IMG/VR virus record: IMGVR_UViG_3300030104_002016
Span: 1 to 21,152 of that record
DNA from: a virus
Reading direction: 5' to 3' (one strand)
Length of the DNA stretch: 21,152 nt
Position numbers and translations under genes: made by a program. A model generated the notes under the pieces. The model ran no database searches, was not told where the DNA came from, and worked only from the letters and a program-made list of their open reading frames with translations. Positions 2,233-15,079 of the stretch are shown in pieces. Within the stretch, counting starts at the first letter, position 1, and each line of letters opens with the position of its first letter.

Positions 2233-2640
2233 ATGACTGACAACAAACAAAAGAGTCAACAAATAGATGTAAATAATGATGACGATGACATGCCTGAATA
2301 TCAGGATATGATCTTATTTTATTTATCAAATGGGGTCAAAACACTTGTTTTGATTTGGAGTCTCAGTATTCTTAGCTTGGCGTACATTTCTTTTCCACCA
2401 GTAATTAAAATAGGAAATATAGAATTTGAGATGCCTGATCAACGACCTGATACCAGTTTTGCGAGCGCGATGCTAGGAACGGTCTTGACAAGTTATGGGC
2501 TGAATGTGTCGAAGGGTGCAACGGCTAAAAAGAAAAATGGCGAAGGCGGCGGAGGCAATACACATACAATATTTGTAAAATATCCACCAACAGAAGTACA
2601 AGTCGTAACTAAAAAACCTGATTCACCTAAAAACGCATGA
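2233..2640 (+). CDS. Holin-like membrane protein, 135 aa
   Basis: The N-terminus is polar with an acidic run (DDDDMPEYQ, residues 16-24). A clear membrane segment follows at 36-55 (KTLVLIWSLSILSLAYISF), then a second amphipathic hydrophobic stretch at 75-92 (SFASAMLGTVLTSYGLNV). After that comes a Lys/Gly-rich soluble tail. Two closely spaced membrane segments and a basic tail after the second resemble small phage holins, but there is no diagnostic signature and no endolysin is seen next to it. ATG 2233 has a TAAAGG at short spacing. The stop overlaps the next start (ATGA at 2637-2640), so it opens the plus-strand operon of secreted proteins. It may instead be a membrane partner of those proteins. 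Confidence 0.7.
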   Translation: MTDNKQKSQQIDVNNDDDDMPEYQDMILFYLSNGVKTLVLIWSLSILSLAYISFPPVIKIGNIEFEMPDQRPDTSFASAMLGTVLTSYGLNVSKGATAKKKNGEGGGGNTHTIFVKYPPTEVQVVTKKPDSPKNA

Positions 2641-3140
2641 AACGACTACTGATCCCATTTGTTTTTCTATTGGCTTCACCTGCTAATGCAGATATTTCAA
2701 TCAAACATACAGCCTCAACAAGCTTAAAAGTTGATGGGGCGGCTGTCCATGCGATTAGAGTTCCGTCAACTTATGCTGTCTCGGGGAACAACATGAAAGT
2801 CACCACAGGTGAACACTTTGGAAAATTGACAGCACCAACAGCCACCGCAGCAGCAATTCTTGATGTTGGAGCTATGGAGGTTAATGTTGTAAGCAGTGCC
2901 TTTTCGTACGAAGAATCGTATATTCAAGGTGATGCGATTCCAGCCATAGGATCAGGCGTTGATGTCTCCGCCGGAGTGGTTCCAGACATGCCGGCTTTTG
3001 GAAATCTTGTAGTAACCTCCGGGGGTGTAGCTGGAAATTTACAAGGGACTGTCCTAAGCTCTGGTTTAACCACCGTTCAGGCAGGTGGGGCGGGGACAAC
3101 TGGGGTCGCACAATATAGCTCAGAAATTACCGTAAAATGA
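2637..3140 (+). CDS. Secreted cyanophage-type hypothetical protein, 167 aa
   Basis: Residues 1-19 are a textbook signal peptide (MKRLL, hydrophobic core, SPANA cleavage site). The mature part is Gly/Ala/Ser/Thr/Val-rich and looks all-beta. It has YAVSGNNM at 46-53, AFSYEESY at 88-95 and a Gly-rich C-terminal stretch (TTVQAGGAGTTGVAQYS) ending in EITVK. From memory, T4-like cyanomyoviruses carry a conserved hypothetical with the same layout (signal peptide, Gly-rich GGVAGNLQGT and AGGAGTT blocks, SEITV end). That recollection needs a search to confirm. It shares the YxVSGxN and AFSxxES blocks with the next gene, suggesting paralogy. It is coupled to the upstream gene by an ATGA overlap. Export by the host Sec pathway is predicted; function is unknown. 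Confidence 0.8.
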   Translation: MKRLLIPFVFLLASPANADISIKHTASTSLKVDGAAVHAIRVPSTYAVSGNNMKVTTGEHFGKLTAPTATAAAILDVGAMEVNVVSSAFSYEESYIQGDAIPAIGSGVDVSAGVVPDMPAFGNLVVTSGGVAGNLQGTVLSSGLTTVQAGGAGTTGVAQYSSEITVK

Positions 3141-3146
3141 TTCTTA

Positions 3147-3593
3147 ATGAGGAAAATCTATAAATTATTGTTGTTTATATCCTTTGTAGGTACTAGCGTT
3201 TCTGCTGTTCCCGTCGTCCCAACATTTTCTACGGGAACGCTAAATTCACGCCAAGAAACTAAAACTGTTGTTTCGGAAACAATAACAAGTGTAGATTTTT
3301 CTGGCTCACAATATGTGGTTTCAGGTCACAATATAGAACCTTTAAATAATAATAATGTTATCTCTCCTCGACTTGTAGAAAGCACACCTCAAACTGTTGA
3401 TAACATCAACTTCACATGGACATCAGTAGATGTAACCCCCGCAAACAAACCAGATTGGAAAATAACAAATCCTGGACAAGCTTTTTCATTCACGGAAAGC
3501 CTTCAAAATTCCGGGCTTTCAAATATAACAACAATAAACAGAATAACCACAACAGAATCCTTAGTAGAATCGGTATCTGTCTTTACTCAATAA
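3147..3593 (+). CDS. Secreted cyanophage-type hypothetical protein, 148 aa
   Basis: The signal peptide covers residues 1-20 (MRKIYK, LLLFISFVGTSVS, cleavage after SVSA), so the mature protein starts VPVVPTFSTG. The mature chain is Ser/Thr/Asn/Val-rich and probably beta-structured, with no Cys. It contains YVVSGHNI (56-63) and AFSFTESL (112-119), both shared with the preceding protein, and ends TTTESLVESVSVFTQ. From memory, it resembles a second member of a conserved cyanomyovirus set (PVVPxFxxGxxxSxxET start, SVFTQ end). It starts 6 nt after the upstream stop without a visible Shine-Dalgarno sequence. The next gene's signal peptide begins inside its last codons, so all three secreted proteins are probably made from one message. 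Confidence 0.8.
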   Translation: MRKIYKLLLFISFVGTSVSAVPVVPTFSTGTLNSRQETKTVVSETITSVDFSGSQYVVSGHNIEPLNNNNVISPRLVESTPQTVDNINFTWTSVDVTPANKPDWKITNPGQAFSFTESLQNSGLSNITTINRITTTESLVESVSVFTQ

Positions 3594-4258
3594 CACTTAG
3601 TCAGCCAGTCTTTGCTAACTCTACAACTATAGCAAGCCCTTCTGCCACGTCACAGGGGTCAGTGATTAACCAAGGTATTCAGGTACAAAGTGGTAGCTTT
3701 ATGTTTCAAGAATTAGGTGATGGAATCCGTTGTAGTGGAACAACTTTGACTATTAATCCATTCATTTCTAAAGTTAATACTTGGAAAGATCCTTTTGAAC
3801 CAACTTATCTAGAAAATATATATGATGATAGCACTGATGACAACGGTAATCTAATAAATCCAGGTGGAGTTTTGTATCAAAAGCCAATAAGGACAGGACA
3901 AGCGCGTAACAACTTAAGTTTTAATTACGGTGTGACCGCAACTATAGCTGTTCCATTAGATCGCCGTATGGTTAATAACTGCGTGGCCGCGCAAAATAGC
4001 AGGGTTAAATATTTAGAACAAGCTTATAAGGCTAGAAAATTAGACTACTCTTTAAGTCGTTTAAAAATATGTGCTGAGCAATTAAAACTGGGCGTGACCT
4101 ACGCTAAAAACAGCCCAAGCTTTGTGACTTGTTCAGATGTCCGTTTAGTCAATCCTCCTAACACCCTCCCAAATCATAAACATTCTATTTCTTCAAATTC
4201 CTCTGATCCTTTCGCCTTTCAGAAAGGGACTTTACAAGAGGTTTCTTCCCCCGAATAG
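3557..4258 (+). CDS. Secreted Cys-containing cyanophage-type protein; start codon unclear
   Basis: The frame from 3557 encodes an apparent signal peptide (ILSR, IGICLYSITL, SQPVFA with cleavage before NSTTI). No ATG, GTG or TTG is available there: codon 3557 is ATC and the nearest in-frame standard starts are TTG 3455 and ATG 3416. Those would add 34 or 47 residues of unlikely sequence read inside the upstream gene. I annotate from ATC 3557 as the most protein-like start (233 aa). The mature part has four Cys (RCSG, NNCV, KICA, VTCS) that could form two disulfides. It also has a KDPFEPTY block, a QKPIRTG block, a helical middle, and a C-terminal PPNTLPNHKHS motif. From memory, this matches the third member of the cyanomyovirus secreted set. 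The end overlaps the convergent gene by 74 nt. Confidence 0.7.
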   Translation: MLSRIGICLYSITLSQPVFANSTTIASPSATSQGSVINQGIQVQSGSFMFQELGDGIRCSGTTLTINPFISKVNTWKDPFEPTYLENIYDDSTDDNGNLINPGGVLYQKPIRTGQARNNLSFNYGVTATIAVPLDRRMVNNCVAAQNSRVKYLEQAYKARKLDYSLSRLKICAEQLKLGVTYAKNSPSFVTCSDVRLVNPPNTLPNHKHSISSNSSDPFAFQKGTLQEVSSPE

Positions 4259-5012
4259 CAAGCAGCTTTTTTGTTATTTTCTTTGATAAACTTTTAGCTT
4301 GTCCTTTTAATTGTTTTTGGAAAAACTTGGCTAATGGTTGCCCAATTACAGTTACACCAACAACAGAAGTAATAGCAATAGTAGATGTATTTACAATGGT
4401 GCTAGGCGGTGGAGTATATGAATTGATGACGTCAAATAATGCTCGGTCTTGGTAGATCGTTTCACATAAATTACCATTCTTTTCATAACGTAAAACAACC
4501 TTTGTTGAAAACTTACCAACAGCCCCAGGGGGGGGTGAACCAGGCAACGGACAAGGAAGGTCAATAGAAGCATTAGTGTTGATACCTTTTAAATCAACTT
4601 TTGGCAATTCAAGGTTTTTTGCAATGCTGTCTGTTTCTGTGTTTTTATCTTTTTTAGTTTTGTTTGTTGTTGTTCTTTTTTCTGTTTTAGTTTGTTCTTT
4701 TGGTGTTTCTAATTTTGGGACAGGTGGAACAATTTCAGGCTCTTCTTCAACAGATTGAATATTTTCCACGCCAGTCCAATCAACAGCCATGCTTTCCAGT
4801 GTTGGAACATTGCCATCACAAAGGATTAAATTTCCACGTTCGTCATTAGTAACTAAATTTTTATTTTTTAATGTCCTAGCCCGTACACAACCAGGTATCT
4901 GAATTACTGGAAAACCAATGTTGCCAGGTATTTTAGGATTAGGCGTATTAATTATTGATAGATCGATTGAAGCTTGAGGTATTTCTCTAATTGATATATC
5001 TTCTATTTCCAC
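4185..5012 (-). CDS. Membrane-anchored Pro/Lys-rich cyanophage-type protein, 275 aa
   Basis: It starts at GTG 5012-5010, immediately after the in-frame TAA of the upstream gene; the first ATG would be codon 75. Layout: a Pro/Ile-rich N-terminus (IREIPQASIDLSIINTPNP, 8-26), then Cys42 and Cys65. A low-complexity Pro/Glu/Lys/Thr linker follows (about 88-130), reminiscent of TonB-type spacers. Next is a compact domain with DLPCPLPGSPPPGAVG (151-166) and CETIYQD (183-189), one membrane helix (about 205-226, IVNTSTIAITSVVGVTVIG), and a strongly basic tail (230-275). From memory, the CPxP...CETIxQD...TSxVxxxPLAK...KK pattern resembles a conserved cyanomyovirus hypothetical. It probably spans the inner membrane with the linker in the periplasm, but orientation is not certain. 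Confidence 0.75.
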   Translation of the reverse strand: MEIEDISIREIPQASIDLSIINTPNPKIPGNIGFPVIQIPGCVRARTLKNKNLVTNDERGNLILCDGNVPTLESMAVDWTGVENIQSVEEEPEIVPPVPKLETPKEQTKTEKRTTTNKTKKDKNTETDSIAKNLELPKVDLKGINTNASIDLPCPLPGSPPPGAVGKFSTKVVLRYEKNGNLCETIYQDRALFDVINSYTPPPSTIVNTSTIAITSVVGVTVIGQPLAKFFQKQLKGQAKSLSKKITKKLLAIRGKKPLVKSLSERRKDQRNLKK

Positions 5013-5552
5013 TTAGCAATCAGATAAATCTTTACCCAAACTTGAGCCAATGTCGGAACCTATTTTTTGCGCCCTATTCCTGGCAAAAGGCTCTAATAAA
5101 AATCCAATTATCGGAATATTAGAAAGCCTTGATGCGCCCGCAGCTGTAGCAACTCCAGCCCCTACCAGACCACCGTTATTCTTTCCAATGATTGAAGCCT
5201 CTAAGCATTTCATATCTATCTCTTGTCTTTTCTCTGTCGGTACATGGGGGACATATTCACGCCTAACATAGCTAACATCTTGTTTACCATTCCATTTGCT
5301 TTTAGTTGTATCGCTACTAAATAAAACCGTTTTGGGTTGGTGCATATTATGAGTGATCGTTAAATCTAATTTTTCCCCATTTTTCTGATAGTGCATTTGA
5401 CTTGCAGAGTTTTCAGTTGTATTTAATCGCGCTAGATCAAAAGGAATTGAATTAGTAGATTTTGATAACAAGGTTAAACTAAAAAAATTAGTACCAATTA
5501 AACCAGCCCCTAAAAGGATACTTAAAAAAGGAAAATCAGAACGGTAAGACAT
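5013..5552 (-). CDS. Membrane protein with glycine-zipper tail, cyanophage type, 179 aa
   Basis: Residues 8-29 (PFLSILLGAGLIGTNFFSLTLL) are a membrane anchor or uncleaved signal. A polar region follows (30-110), then the block EKRQEIDMKCLEASIIGKN (107-125). The C-terminal third is rich in small residues: GGLVGAGVATAAGASRLSNI (127-146), IPIIGFLLEP (146-155), and KIGSDIGSSLGKDLSDC at the very end. Repeated GxxxG spacing suggests membrane or oligomer packing. Cys116 and the terminal Cys179 could pair. From memory, the IDMxCLEASIxGKNxGGxxGA segment resembles a conserved cyanomyovirus protein. The start overlaps the upstream gene by 17 nt. The stop TAA is followed at once, in the same frame, by the GTG start of the next gene. 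Confidence 0.75.
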   Translation of the reverse strand: MSYRSDFPFLSILLGAGLIGTNFFSLTLLSKSTNSIPFDLARLNTTENSASQMHYQKNGEKLDLTITHNMHQPKTVLFSSDTTKSKWNGKQDVSYVRREYVPHVPTEKRQEIDMKCLEASIIGKNNGGLVGAGVATAAGASRLSNIPIIGFLLEPFARNRAQKIGSDIGSSLGKDLSDC

Positions 5553-5742
5553 TACCTGTTGCCTTTGGCATCTCCATACTAGGCATACTTTCTTTTACTA
5601 GCTTCGGCAATTCGCTCTTTATTTGAGACATTGCATGATTAATAATCTTTTGACGATTTAGAAAACCATATCCAAGGCCACCAAGACCTACTAAAAACGC
5701 AGTAAAGGAAATGATAGAAAGAGTGTTAATTACTTTTTGCAT
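5536..5742 (-). CDS. Small N-terminally anchored protein, cyanophage type, 68 aa
   Basis: One membrane segment (residues 7-27, TLSIISFTAFLVGLGGLGYGF) is followed by a basic turn (NRQK). A helical polar tail (HAMSQIKSELPKLVKESM) then ends in Pro/Met-rich MPSMEMPKATGNVLPF. From memory, a protein of the same size and plan, with the same ATGxxxPF end, accompanies the secreted set in cyanomyoviruses. ATG 5742-5740 begins 3 nt after the upstream stop, and the 3' end overlaps the next gene by 17 nt. A bitopic protein with its tail on the cytoplasmic or periplasmic face is expected; its role is unknown. Confidence 0.72.
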   Translation of the reverse strand: MQKVINTLSIISFTAFLVGLGGLGYGFLNRQKIINHAMSQIKSELPKLVKESMPSMEMPKATGNVLPF

Positions 5743-5745
5743 TAA

Positions 5746-5994
5746 TCAATACTTAGACTTTCCAAGTGTAATTGCTGCATCTATATCTGTAAAAGATTCA
5801 GAAGTCCAGATAGAAGTTGTGCCGTCCTCTTTCTTATAAGCCTTAATTATTTCTAGATGATCTACATTCCTTTTAAGGGTGTCCTTATCTTCATCAGTAA
5901 TTTTTGATTGAGCAGCAATAGAATTGATGAGAGTGACGCTATCACCAGCAGCATTAAAGACTTTTGCAACTTCTTCCGTAGAACGTTCAGCCAT
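5746..5994 (-). CDS. Small soluble helical protein after the fibre gene, 82 aa
   Basis: I chose ATG 5994-5992 ([19 protein letters not shown]); a TTG six codons upstream is possible. The ATG lies 8 nt inside the end of the collagen-like fibre gene, so translation is coupled. The product is a helical, acidic protein with the block [20 protein letters not shown] (about 45-64) and no membrane segment. I recall similar short proteins (EEVxKVxxAA...KRNVDHLEI...) as conserved hypotheticals in cyanomyoviruses and other marine phages, placed next to fibre or structural genes. That placement hints at a virion or fibre-assembly accessory protein, but no activity can be read from the sequence. Confidence 0.72.
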
Positions 5995-8707
5995 TGTTTC
6001 TAAGAGTTTCAATCTCCATTTTAAGCTCTTGTATAGCTCTTACAAGTATTGGTATTAATTTTCCAGGTGCTGCCTCAAGTTTTTCTGGATTTGACTCTAA
6101 AACTAAATTTAAAAAATCAGCATCATTATTTTTTTGTGCTTCCTGAAAATCCTGAGCAATAAAACCTGCCTCGTAACCTTTTGGCCCCTTGCCATCTCTA
6201 GTTTGCCACTTGAATTTTACAGGTTTAAGAGAATCAATAAAATCCAATCCTAGATCTAATGTTTTGATATCTGTTTTATCACGTCTATCAGATAAAGATG
6301 AAATTGAGCTTACTTGACAACGCAACGTTGCAACTGAACTATTGCCCAAAACGACTTCGTTTGAAGCTGTGCTTGAACTTGTATCCGAATTAAATCCTAT
6401 ACAGGTATTATTAGAGCCAGTTGTAATGTTATCTCCAGCATGAGCTCCCAGTGCAGAATTTTCTGAGCCTGTATTTACAACCTGTAAAGACTGATTTCCC
6501 ATCCCAGTGTTGTCATTTCCAGTTGTCAGTCCCCCTAGTGCTTCATAGCCCATGCTATTGTTGAAAAGTCCGGTGGTGACTGAATCCATTGCTCTAAGAC
6601 CCACCCCACCATTTCCATATCCTGTAGTGTTACGTTTGCCGGCTTCATACCCCACAAAAACATTTGAATCGCCTGAGGTAGTCGCCTCTCCTGCAAACGC
6701 TCCAACGGCTACGTTATTGCCTGCCGTATTAAGATTTAAAGCCTTGTAACCAACAGCAACCAACTCCGAATTTGTAGTAACAGTCGACAACGCACCACTT
6801 CCAATCGCGACGGATTTATCTCCGGAACTAATGGCTGCGCCTGCATTGTAGCCATAAAGAGAATTATTTACTGCACTTGTACCACTAAAACTACTTCCAG
6901 CGTTTGTGCCTCCCACCGTATTGTATTCAGAGTCAGAATCTAGTCCTCCACCAGCAGCAGCAGCCCATTTAACTCCAGTTGCTTCATTAGAGTCAGCAGT
7001 TAAAACATAATCATTAGTTCCTACAGCTAAAGCAGTTGGATCGCCTGAGCCATCACCAATTAATATTTCACCCTTACCGTCTAAATCGCTATTCATTACT
7101 GCGCCAGCCGAATCTACGTTGGTTGCATTAACTGTTGCATCTGAGCCATCCGCACCTGCGGCGCCTTGTGGTCCCTGAGGTCCTGTTGCACCTGTAGCCC
7201 CTGCCGATCCCGTTGTTCCAGTAGGACCAGTTGCGCCGGTAGCGCCGGTCTCTCCTCTAGGTATTGTGAAATTGAACGTGGCAGCAGAAGATGAACCACT
7301 ATTTGAAACTGAGGCGTTAGTTCCTGCGTTACCTGTAGTTGTTGAACCAACCGCTATAGTTGCCGCTGCCCCATCAGCCCCATCAGATCCAGCGGGCCCA
7401 GTTGCTCCAGTTGCTCCATCACTACCATCGGCTCCGGCAGCTCCTGTTGCACCAGTTGGACCTTGAGGGCCTGTTGCTCCTGTCGCTCCATCTGAACCAT
7501 CTGCGCCTGCTGCACCAGTTGGGCCTTGGGGTCCGGTCGGACCTTGAGCACCCGTTGCGCCTTGTGGTCCTGTAGCGCCAGTTGCTCCATCGTTTCCGTC
7601 AGATCCGTCATTACCTGCTGGGCCTTGAGGTCCGGTTGCACCTGTTGCACCCTGTGAACCTGTAGAACCTTGAATCCCTTGAATCCCTTGTGAACCCTGT
7701 GGGCCTGTGGCTCCAGTGTCGCCTTTGTCTCCTGTTCGAGCAAATGTAATAACTAAATTTTCATTACTACTAAAAGTCCCATCCCCCGAGACATAAGCAC
7801 AAGTAACTTTGTGATAACCGGTAGCTTCTGTTGCAGCCGAAATAGTATATAAACGGAAATTATCAGGTTCAGCCTCTTCACTAATTTTAAAATGACCTTT
7901 TATTGTCGAAGTAGAATCATCTATCGTCCTTAAATAAGCTTGAATATCTGTTCCGTTCTTATCTGTATCATCAATAAATAGAAGCGTTGCACTTTGAGGC
8001 GCTGCGTTATTTAACGCTAATTTGCCTGCACCCGGATCGGCATCACTAGTAGACGTGTTGAATTGATATTCAAAGGTAGCCCCACCAAATGCGCCGGTTT
8101 GCCCAGTCGCGCCAGTATTACCCTGTGGCCCAGTATTTCCTTGCGGGCCTTGGATACCTTGATTGCCTTGTGCGCCCGTCGATCCTGTTGGCCCTGTTGC
8201 TCCTGCTGGCCCTGTTGCTCCTGTATCACCTCTAGGAATGGTAAATTTAAAACTCGCAGCAGAGGCTGAGCCTTCATTCGTAACGCTTGCACTTGTACCA
8301 GCATTACCCGTAACTGTTGAATCTATGCCAACCGTTGCCGCCGAGCCTGTAGATCCTGTAGATCCTGTTGTACCTGTTGGCCCAGTTGCGCCAGTCGCTC
8401 CGGTTGGACCTATTAACGAGACGTAGCTACCAGGCCACGTCCCGCTTGCCTTTGGTCCATACAATCTTGAATTGGTTGTTTCAATCCACCAATCACCGTC
8501 ATTGCCATCACTACTTTGAGGGACTGAACTTCCACTCCTAACTAAAGTTCCTGATTGACCTACAGCTCCAGTTGCGCCCGTAGCGCCCGTTGGTCCGGCG
8601 GGTCCAGTTGGGCCAGTTGGGCCAGCAGTAATGATTTTTACTGTCTGATTTTCATCATCAAGAATCTTGACCTGATTGATTGTCTCGGTAATAGTTACGT
8701 TGCTCAT
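5987..8707 (-). CDS. Collagen-like tail fibre with C-terminal S74 intramolecular chaperone, 906 aa
   Basis: The domains in order are as follows. A short N-terminal attachment region (1-28) is followed by Gly-X-Y blocks at 29-53, 100-122, 160-206, 326-447 and 485-522, mostly [27 protein letters not shown] patch lies at 70-85. A repeated 37-residue beta module occurs at 124-160 and 449-485. A globular domain occupies 207-325. A beta-roll region at about 600-790 repeats every 20-25 residues ([27 protein letters not shown]). The peptidase S74 domain starts at S806 (SDRRDKTDI), with the conserved GFIAQDF and a C-terminal helix. S74 domains trimerise fibres and then cleave themselves off just before that Ser, so the mature fibre should end at about residue 805. 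ATG 8707 overlaps the upstream stop (ATGA). It is probably a host-recognition side fibre. Confidence 0.92.
7253..7363 (-). repeat. Intragenic module repeat, copy 2
   Basis: Residues 449-485 of the fibre repeat the copy 1 module with conserved [14 protein letters not shown] and NFTIPRG. Both copies precede a fresh Gly-X-Y block. FTIPRG may be a cap that starts triple-helix registration (inference). Confidence 0.8.
7367..7732 (-). repeat. Longest collagen-like Gly-X-Y tract in the fibre gene
   Basis: Codes for residues 326-447, an almost unbroken run of GPQ, GAT, GPT, GAA and GSD triplets with internal near-direct DNA repeats. Such tracts recombine easily and are common sites of length variation and mis-assembly. 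Long open frames on both strands here are side effects of the repeat and are not genes. Confidence 0.85.
8228..8338 (-). repeat. Intragenic module repeat, copy 1
   Basis: Residues 124-160 of the fibre: ATVG..ST.TGNAGT.ASV, then [12 protein letters not shown], placed between collagen blocks. Copy 2 is at 7253-7363. Confidence 0.8.
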
Positions 8708-14192: not shown

Positions 14193-14507
14193 CTACTTTG
14201 GATGTAGTAAATACCATTGGGCAGTATCAGGATTAACAATGAAAAAATTTATTCCGATGCTATTGCATGAATTAACATCTCCTTCACTTGGTTGAGGTGA
14301 ACAATCGGGATGGCTATGAAATATACCTGTCACTTCGCCTAAATTGTCGGCAATAATCCAACCATTCGGATCTAATACGAAATTATTAATCTTATCGTCT
14401 GCAATATTTTGGCAAGGCAAATAACTTCGATCATCAACAACAAGCCCACAAGCTTCATAAGGCTTTGATTCAATTGCATGTAATAACGCTTGATTTTTCC
14501 AAGTCAT
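14193..14507 (-). CDS. JAB/MPN+ metalloprotease-like tail protein (N-terminal half of lambda gpK)
   Basis: The chain carries a complete JAMM signature: Glu near the N-terminus (PYEACGLVV), HSHPDCSPQPSEGD with HxH, then seven residues, Ser, two residues and Asp. These are the zinc ligands and catalytic Glu of JAB/MPN+ isopeptidases. Lambda gpK has this domain followed by an NlpC/P60 cysteine-peptidase domain; here the protein ends just after the JAB fold (104 aa), so the NlpC/P60 half is absent. The ATG at 14507 shares one base with the gpL stop (TGATG); a TTG one codon upstream is less likely. Its place between L and I is exactly that of K. It probably processes or scaffolds the tail tip. Intact zinc ligands argue that it is active. 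Confidence 0.9.
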   Translation of the reverse strand: MTWKNQALLHAIESKPYEACGLVVDDRSYLPCQNIADDKINNFVLDPNGWIIADNLGEVTGIFHSHPDCSPQPSEGDVNSCNSIGINFFIVNPDTAQWYLLHPK

Positions 14508-15079
14508 CAAACATAGGCTCCGATACCAGGGAAATCAGTTCTTGTAAATTGTCTTTTTGGTATCTTGACGTTTGTTAAATCAAAGGCACTAACACATTCA
14601 AATTCAACAATTTCTCTATTTTCTATACTTTTGCGATGGATAAAATACACCTCTTGAGGAAGTTCTTGAGTGGGATCTGCATCTGAATTGCCACCGCTAA
14701 AATTAGCTGCATCCAAGTATTTAGCCAACGTCCTTATTCTTGTTAATTTACATTTTTGTAAATCATTACCTGGAGTCGTAGCATTAACGGTCAGCATTAA
14801 TGTTGTGAACGTCCCAAGGATATTACTAACGGTCAAAGTTGGTCTTGCTAATGTTCCTGATGTTTGACCTTTAAAATCAAAACCTGATGCTTGAATAGGA
14901 AACCTTTGATAACTATTTCCTGCCCATACAACCTCTGCATTTGAATGATTAGAACCGTTATGAAAACGGTAAACAGGATCGACAGATGAACCGTGAATTG
15001 ATGAATCCATCGTTAACGTAAACAATTCAATAATTGCTGACGGATTTGTTTTCTGTAATTCTGCAATTGGGATAGGCAT
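14507..15079 (-). CDS. L: Minor tail protein (lambda gpL family), lacking the Cys cluster
   Basis: IAELQKTNPSAIIELFTLTMD, VYRFHNGSN and VVWAGNSYQRFPIQASGFDF are the usual gpL start. GTLARPTLTVSN and TRIRTLAKYLD follow, as in the family. After EFECVSAFDLTNVKIPKRQ the family normally continues into a Cys-rich segment that in lambda gpL binds an iron-sulfur cluster, ending in a conserved FPG motif. Here IPKRQ is followed almost directly by FTRTDFPGIGAYV, so the cysteine segment is missing while the final FPG end remains. Only Cys110 and Cys162 are present. Total length is 190 aa against 232 in lambda. It is coupled to gpM by TAATG and to the JAB gene by TGATG. Confidence 0.9.
   Translation of the reverse strand: MPIPIAELQKTNPSAIIELFTLTMDSSIHGSSVDPVYRFHNGSNHSNAEVVWAGNSYQRFPIQASGFDFKGQTSGTLARPTLTVSNILGTFTTLMLTVNATTPGNDLQKCKLTRIRTLAKYLDAANFSGGNSDADPTQELPQEVYFIHRKSIENREIVEFECVSAFDLTNVKIPKRQFTRTDFPGIGAYV

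Follow-up and report, generated by a model that had tools for sequence, protein, structure and literature searches.

A convergent gene cassette shared by long-, short- and contractile-tailed cyanophages is a candidate host-envelope lysis module

Introduction

Sullivan et al. (2010; PMC3037559) described a cluster of the gene families T4-GC 218, 219, 234, 235 and 237, together with a "plasmid stability protein", in T4-like cyanophages, and found it in all of them except S-PM2. The authors suggested that the genes cluster "for functional reasons" and that the cluster is mobile, and gave no function. Families 218, 234, 235 and 237 also lie clustered, as in the 2010 cluster, in the window analyzed here, the complete 21,152-base IMG/VR record IMGVR_UViG_3300030104_002016, whose minus strand carries the structural block of a lambda-like siphovirus, running from capsid to tail fibers. 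The genes are named here by T4-GC number (g218, g237, g236, g235 and g234) or by PHROG family (phrog_605 and phrog_568). They form a cassette in which 218, 237, 236 and 235 on the plus strand meet 234, phrog_605 and phrog_568 on the minus strand tail to tail. This cassette is probably a host-envelope lysis module of picocyanobacterial phages, with a holin-like protein and, probably, a spanin-like action.

An initial annotation had flagged most of this block as a set of seven genes that a siphovirus would share with T4-like cyanophages, and had proposed either an envelope-spanning system or exported virion-associated proteins. The genes at 2637, 3147 and about 3557 (plus) and at 4185–5994 (minus) are present, and a lambda-like siphovirus does carry a set common to T4-like cyanophages. 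The block nevertheless extends beyond that description. Of the seven genes, six belong to it and resemble, as claimed, hypothetical proteins of cyanomyoviruses (phrog_564, 650, 848, 570, 605 and 568), but the DUF6450 gene at 2233–2640 had been omitted, and the seventh gene, gX (P0008), neither shows that resemblance nor is conserved. It was correct that no function has been given, although the cluster itself was already described in 2010.

Distribution of the cassette

In a tblastn search of 50,697 phage records, relatives of g235 (P0004) were found in 442 records and relatives of g237 (P0002) in 396, all of them marine cyanophages. The synteny of the cassette recurs in nearly 300 loci, and in P-HM2 and Syn9 the genes converge as they do here (237-236-235 against 234-(605)-568-218), bearing out the predicted co-occurrence in cyanophages. 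Given the restriction of both genes to cyanophages and the recurring synteny, the cassette is not a chance arrangement. The cultured Prochlorococcus phage MED4-184 (38 kilobases (kb), with an annotated tape-measure protein) has the layout of the window, and in the Autographiviridae phage S37C6 the cassette adjoins the fiber gene. The T7-like phages P-SSP7, S-TIP37 and P-GSP1 carry a four-gene form, 234-218-236-235, on a single strand. All four genes occur in 63 of the 80 IMG/VR loci fetched with an S-TIP37 protein (59 exactly, and four with an extra gX match). This form is the minimal set, of two membrane and two secreted proteins. DUF6450 is present in each cassette genome tested.

A host origin was sought in bacterial and archaeal genomes. 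A single-sequence scan gave zero matches, and a profile scan found 14 places with cassette matches. From contig sizes and from their sources in metagenome-assembled genomes (MAGs) and single cells, and not from singly inspected contigs, these are read as contigs of phages that were infecting the sequenced single cells or that were binned wrongly into MAGs. Cassette contigs at loci L426–L432 and L435–L438 are labelled as Bacteroidetes, Chloroflexota, Euryarchaeota and other genomes, and are probably cyanophage contamination.

The occurrence of the same module in three virion types counts in favor of a role in lysis. It also bears on the proposal that the proteins are packaged or ejected, forming a trans-envelope DNA channel like that of T7 gp14–16. 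While the minus-strand half of the cassette follows the tail-fiber genes in the same direction in both siphovirus and podovirus, the set stays the same whether the tail is contractile, long and non-contractile, or short. Internal virion proteins are already present in T7-like carriers, and three of the cassette proteins carry cleavable-type signal sequences, which are unusual for packaged proteins. A role in the virion or in ejection is quite improbable, and the suggestion of exported virion-associated proteins in the initial annotation finds no support. The virion protein lists of S-CREM2 and S-SZBM1 are uninformative on this point, because a scan of the complete S-SZBM1 genome and of 46 kb of S-CREM2 found no cassette genes, and g235 is absent from the whole S-CREM2 genome.

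Exchange of the cassette as a block

Evidence that the cassette moves as a unit came from comparison of the window with three other genomes. One of them, G007 (40 kb), is the window phage's sibling: its capsid protein is 98% identical, many tail proteins are 80–95% identical, and the phrog_605 protein is 90.5% identical. Its 218, 237, 236, 235 and 234 proteins, however, are merely 24, 40, 38, 30 and 30% identical to those of the window. The same five proteins are 90, 82, 90.5, 77 and 75% identical in G002, which carries T7-like genes, and 36, 78, 82, 77 and 75% identical in G001, a siphovirus with another backbone. The exchanged unit therefore corresponds to positions 2233–5012 of the window, with 605 and 568 outside it, and its core genes are the minimal T7-like set plus 237. 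Mirror-tree distance correlations among 237, 236, 235 and 234 are 0.77–0.90, compared with 0.57–0.73 between these genes and 605/568, while g218 correlates poorly (0.25–0.37). These correlations lend weak support, since shared phylogeny and short sequences confound them.

Two further observations concern these genomes. G002 (IMGVR_UViG_3300020306_000003, loci L316–L318), whose cassette is near-identical to that of the siphovirus window, is 43 kb long, has short terminal repeats and carries T7-like genes, among which a DNA polymerase was not noticed. A 59-amino-acid (aa) membrane protein encoded at 1796–1975 of the window is 85% identical in the otherwise unrelated G001, and is another candidate for exchange.

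Sullivan et al. suggested that the cluster is a self-mobile gene cassette, with mobility arising from the "plasmid stability" protein, and the suggestion was repeated for S-SCSM1. The clustering of the genes, their variable position and the annotation are consistent with this model. However, the 68-aa phrog_568 protein has a transmembrane (TM) segment and matches no Pfam family, T7-like carriers lack phrog_568 yet have 234-218-236-235, and the block exchanged between G007 and the window leaves out both 568 and 605. Self-mobility is very improbable.

Linkage to lysis genes

T4-like phages that lack the cassette, S-PM2 included, carry a C39-peptidase gene annotated as endolysin or lysozyme. S-PM2, the sole T4-like cyanophage without the cluster in 2010, is C39/GH24-positive. 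In a profile search, 235 was absent from 11 of 12 C39-bearing isolates, with a weak partial match in S-CAM7. Conversely, C39 was found in none of eight cassette-bearing GenBank records and in none of six distinct further contigs (G015, which is Syn9 again, was not counted among the six). S-ShM2 has both the cassette and C39, the C39 domain lying within a 1,205-aa protein; the gene for this protein, at locus L417, adjoins the virion structural gene family T4-GC 15. Because the isolates are related, these counts are not independent events.

The search for endolysins covered seven families and was non-exhaustive. GH24 lysozyme, Amidase_2 and M15_4 were found in none of 12 cassette genomes (the eight records, the window, G001, G002 and G007), and GH19 in none of the cassette genomes scanned. 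Glucosaminidase was found only in a 954-aa open reading frame (ORF) of S-SCSM1, and SLT only below the cut-off, in a 1,052-aa ORF of Syn9. A non-exhaustive search for other endolysins among 10 proteins each of G001 and MED4-184 found none.

The strongest evidence for a link to lysis comes from exceptions to this exclusion. Large freshwater-type T4-like cyanophage contigs, one with psbA/psbD, carry cassette and lysozyme at one locus, so that strict exclusion fails. The order at this locus is C39 peptidase, GH24 lysozyme, 218, 234 and 568, facing 235-236-237 where contigs extend, and the peptidase, lysozyme and g218 genes share one direction. Among 80 C39–lysozyme loci, 68 have room downstream, and 56 of these have g218; in 37 gene pairs the g218 frame opens 4–17 bases after the lysozyme gene. 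At the freshwater cyanophage loci L418–L420, 234 and the phrog_568 gene are separated by a nuclease-like gene.

A second line of evidence is replacement at a fixed genomic position. The region between the tail-fiber and terminase genes of T7 holds its holin and Rz/Rz1 genes. The cassette sits between the same genes in P-SSP7, S-TIP37 and P-GSP1, and in the estuarine T7-like phage S-CBP2 a C39 "lysozyme" takes the slot where P-SSP7 has the cassette. Similarly, the siphovirus S-CBS2 and the myovirus S-N03 have a lysozyme or endolysin after the tail-fiber genes, like the position of the cassette in the window. Taken together, the synteny with C39/GH24 genes and the replacement in the T7-like slot refine the envelope role proposed in the initial annotation to one in lysis.

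An alternative model is superinfection exclusion or envelope remodelling, in which the proteins coat or alter the envelope against adsorption or injection by other cyanophages, and the cassette is a mobile island of phage–phage competition. It would account for the combination of secreted and inner-membrane proteins and for block exchange among unrelated phages with the same hosts; specificity would be in keeping with how far the core has diverged between sibling phages, and the position of the cassette varies among T4-like genomes. Typical exclusion genes are sporadic, however, while the cassette occurs in nearly all T4-like and in many T7-like and siphovirus cyanophages. Moreover, the model sits poorly with a DUF6450 gene directly behind a lysozyme gene, and with a lysozyme taking the place of the cassette in the T7-like slot. 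Superinfection exclusion is considered unlikely.

Features of the cassette proteins

The protein of g218 (T4-GC 218, DUF6450; 2233–2640, plus strand) is a short membrane protein of 135 aa and a holin candidate. It matches PF20048 (DUF6450) in Pfam with 35 bits against a cut-off of 25, the PHROG families phrog_2714/721, and P-HM2 PHM2_191 in a hidden Markov model (HMM) comparison. It has an acidic N-terminus, a TM helix at about residues 37–55, a second, less hydrophobic segment and a Lys-rich tail. A simple hydropathy scan finds one hydrophobic segment in the window protein, and the GenBank note for its P-SSP7 homologue, gp43, gives two TM segments. No relation to holin families was found: none of the PHROG families it matches has an assigned function, and the Pfam match is DUF6450.

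The three secreted proteins are encoded by g237 (T4-GC 237, phrog_564; 2637–3140, plus strand; 167 aa), g236 (T4-GC 236, DUF6322, phrog_650; 3147–3593, plus strand; 148 aa) and g235 (T4-GC 235, phrog_848; 3416–4258, plus strand). The signal peptides initially predicted on them are confirmed as Sec-type sequences with AxA-type sites, consistent over hundreds of homologues. A lipobox-like motif was found in 0 of 183 g237, two of 286 g236 and two of 300 g235 sequences, so these are not Rz1-like lipoproteins. The g237 protein is predicted to be beta-rich and matches phrog_564 with E 1.3e-41. The S/T-rich beta protein of g236 matches PF19847 with E 5.7e-26, as well as phrog_650. The two proteins look like paralogues, as judged from cross-matches between their iterated HMMs. 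Single-chain predictions were made with AlphaFold2 (AF2). The g236 model, with a predicted local distance difference test score (pLDDT) of 77, has long, amphipathic, S/T-rich strands of about 20 residues at 32–51 and 124–144, which would be compatible with a barrel and do not amount to evidence for one.

The g235 protein matches phrog_848 with E 8e-60 and has invariant cysteines C59, C142, C172 and C192, with a long helix in its mature part of about 210 aa. The start at 3557 given initially for this real gene is no start codon; the ORF begins at an ATG at 3416. In 267 of 282 loci g235 has its first ATG within the g236 gene, in a different frame, and the median overlap is 178 nucleotides; in the window, positions 3416–3593 encode both the C-terminus of g236 and the overprinted N-terminal extension of g235. 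The 3' ends of g235 and g234 overlap in 167 of 202 loci. For g235 (AF2 model, pLDDT 70) no fold match was found in the PDB, and the matches of g236 (pore hairpins, phage tails, flagellar rings) were too weak to be reliable.

On the minus strand, the membrane segments proposed for three of four proteins are present, one hydrophobic (TM) segment in each. The g234 gene (T4-GC 234, phrog_570; P0005; 4185–5012) has a GTG start and encodes 275 aa, matching phrog_570 with E 2e-31. Its N-terminal part is Cys/Pro/Lys-rich, its TM segment lies at residues 206–224, and the tail after it has a net charge of +16. Of the TonB-like Pro/Lys linker proposed for this protein, the Pro/Lys-rich stretch exists, but no TonB domain was found in a Pfam search. 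A TonB-type energy transducer was rejected, as P0005 lacks a Pfam match and its TM segment is C-terminal rather than an N-terminal anchor. The accessory proteins are that of phrog_605 (5013–5552), with an N-terminal TM segment and a Gly-rich C-terminal segment, and the phrog_568 "plasmid stability" protein (5536–5742), with an N-terminal TM segment.

Next to these lies gX (5746–5994, minus strand), which encodes a soluble protein of 82 aa with relatives in only 10 of 86 cassette loci and no PHROG match below E 0.01. Directly upstream of the minus-strand half is a tail-fiber gene (5987–8707), whose product has long stretches of collagen-like GXX repeats and, at its C-terminus, a likeness to S74-type intramolecular chaperones. 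Farther along, the homologue of tail assembly protein K (14193–14510) is 105 aa long. Its counterpart in the sibling G007 has 235 aa, and the shorter window protein may lack a peptidase domain.

A proposed mechanism for lysis

From the gene content, signal and TM features, synteny, block exchange, endolysin linkage and slot replacement described above, we infer a lysis role for the cassette, a holin role for g218, and the topology, spanin-like role and possible complex of the other proteins. The envelope-spanning system of the initial annotation thus stands in part, action in the host envelope being the best reading and lysis replacing an unspecified system. Late in infection, g218, a short membrane protein encoded beside an endolysin gene in freshwater phages, would serve as a holin-like protein of the inner membrane. 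The Sec-secreted g237, g236 and g235 proteins would come together in the periplasm or outer membrane. Coupled to them would be g234, a protein with a Pro/Lys linker and an inner-membrane tail anchor. The set would jointly disrupt inner and outer membranes, as spanins do elsewhere, without lipoproteins, with the phrog_605 and phrog_568 proteins as accessory membrane proteins. In marine carriers, the peptidoglycan step might use virion hub enzymes or an unrecognized protein, or need no hydrolase.

Several observations weigh against a lysis module. None of the cassette proteins has a known lytic fold or domain, and structure searches with the AF2 models of g235 and g236 gave no significant match; the best structural matches of the g236 model include pore hairpins, at E >= 0.017 and Z <= 4. 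The two-segment pattern is not universal in g218, being found in 167 of 238 homologues. No recognized endolysin was found in the marine carriers scanned to account for the peptidoglycan step. Freshwater phages with both cassette and lysozyme make the exclusion less than absolute, and it may reflect lineage or habitat. DUF6450 also occurs in the C39-positive S-N03, the Syn9 cassette is placed among replication genes, and adjacency to lysis genes could also fit superinfection-exclusion genes.

A broader proposal is offered tentatively: most marine cyanophages might lyse their hosts by an unrecognized system, in which a DUF6450 holin is joined by a secreted complex, predicted to be beta-rich, that is tied to a C-tail-anchored inner-membrane protein and replaces spanins, with no dedicated soluble endolysin of known type, and which is traded as one block across three tail types. 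Viral lysis of Prochlorococcus and Synechococcus supplies a large share of ocean dissolved organic matter. In the literature examined, most cyanophages have no assigned lysis genes. The cassette is a concrete, testable candidate in more than 440 sequenced cyanophages, and suggests a part in cell lysis for genes labelled "hypothetical" or "plasmid stability". It is also a clear example of how phages that infect one host group, whatever their tail type (contractile, long or short), trade a functional module.

Comparison with known systems

The cassette shares with the Rz/Rz1 spanins (lambda; T7 18.5/18.7) the combination of putative inner-membrane and exported partners, the same region of the T7 genome, and an out-of-frame overlap of two genes for exported proteins (236/235). 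Unlike spanins, it has no lipoprotein, its secreted proteins are 150–230 aa long and predicted to be beta-rich or Cys-bearing, and its inner-membrane partner is anchored by a C-terminal tail. With class II holins of the S21 type, g218 has in common its short length and a charged C-terminus; it shows up to two hydrophobic segments, where class II holins have two TM helices, N-in/C-in. Class II holins share an operon with an endolysin, and in freshwater cyanophages the g218 gene comes right after that for a GH24 lysozyme, but it has no lysozyme partner in marine carriers. No sequence relation of g218 to holin families was found.

The C39/GH24 endolysin locus of S-PM2, S-CBP2 and S-CREM1 occupies the same T7-like slot and the same freshwater T4-like operon. 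It encodes peptidoglycan hydrolases, unlike the membrane and secreted proteins of the cassette, and the two are nearly exclusive in isolates. The closest relative is the cluster of Sullivan et al. (2010; PMC3037559), which has the same families, arranged convergently as they are in P-HM2 and Syn9. That cluster was described from T4-like phages only and without a function; new here are its span across siphoviruses, T7-like podoviruses and myoviruses, its exchange as a block, and its linkage to endolysin genes.

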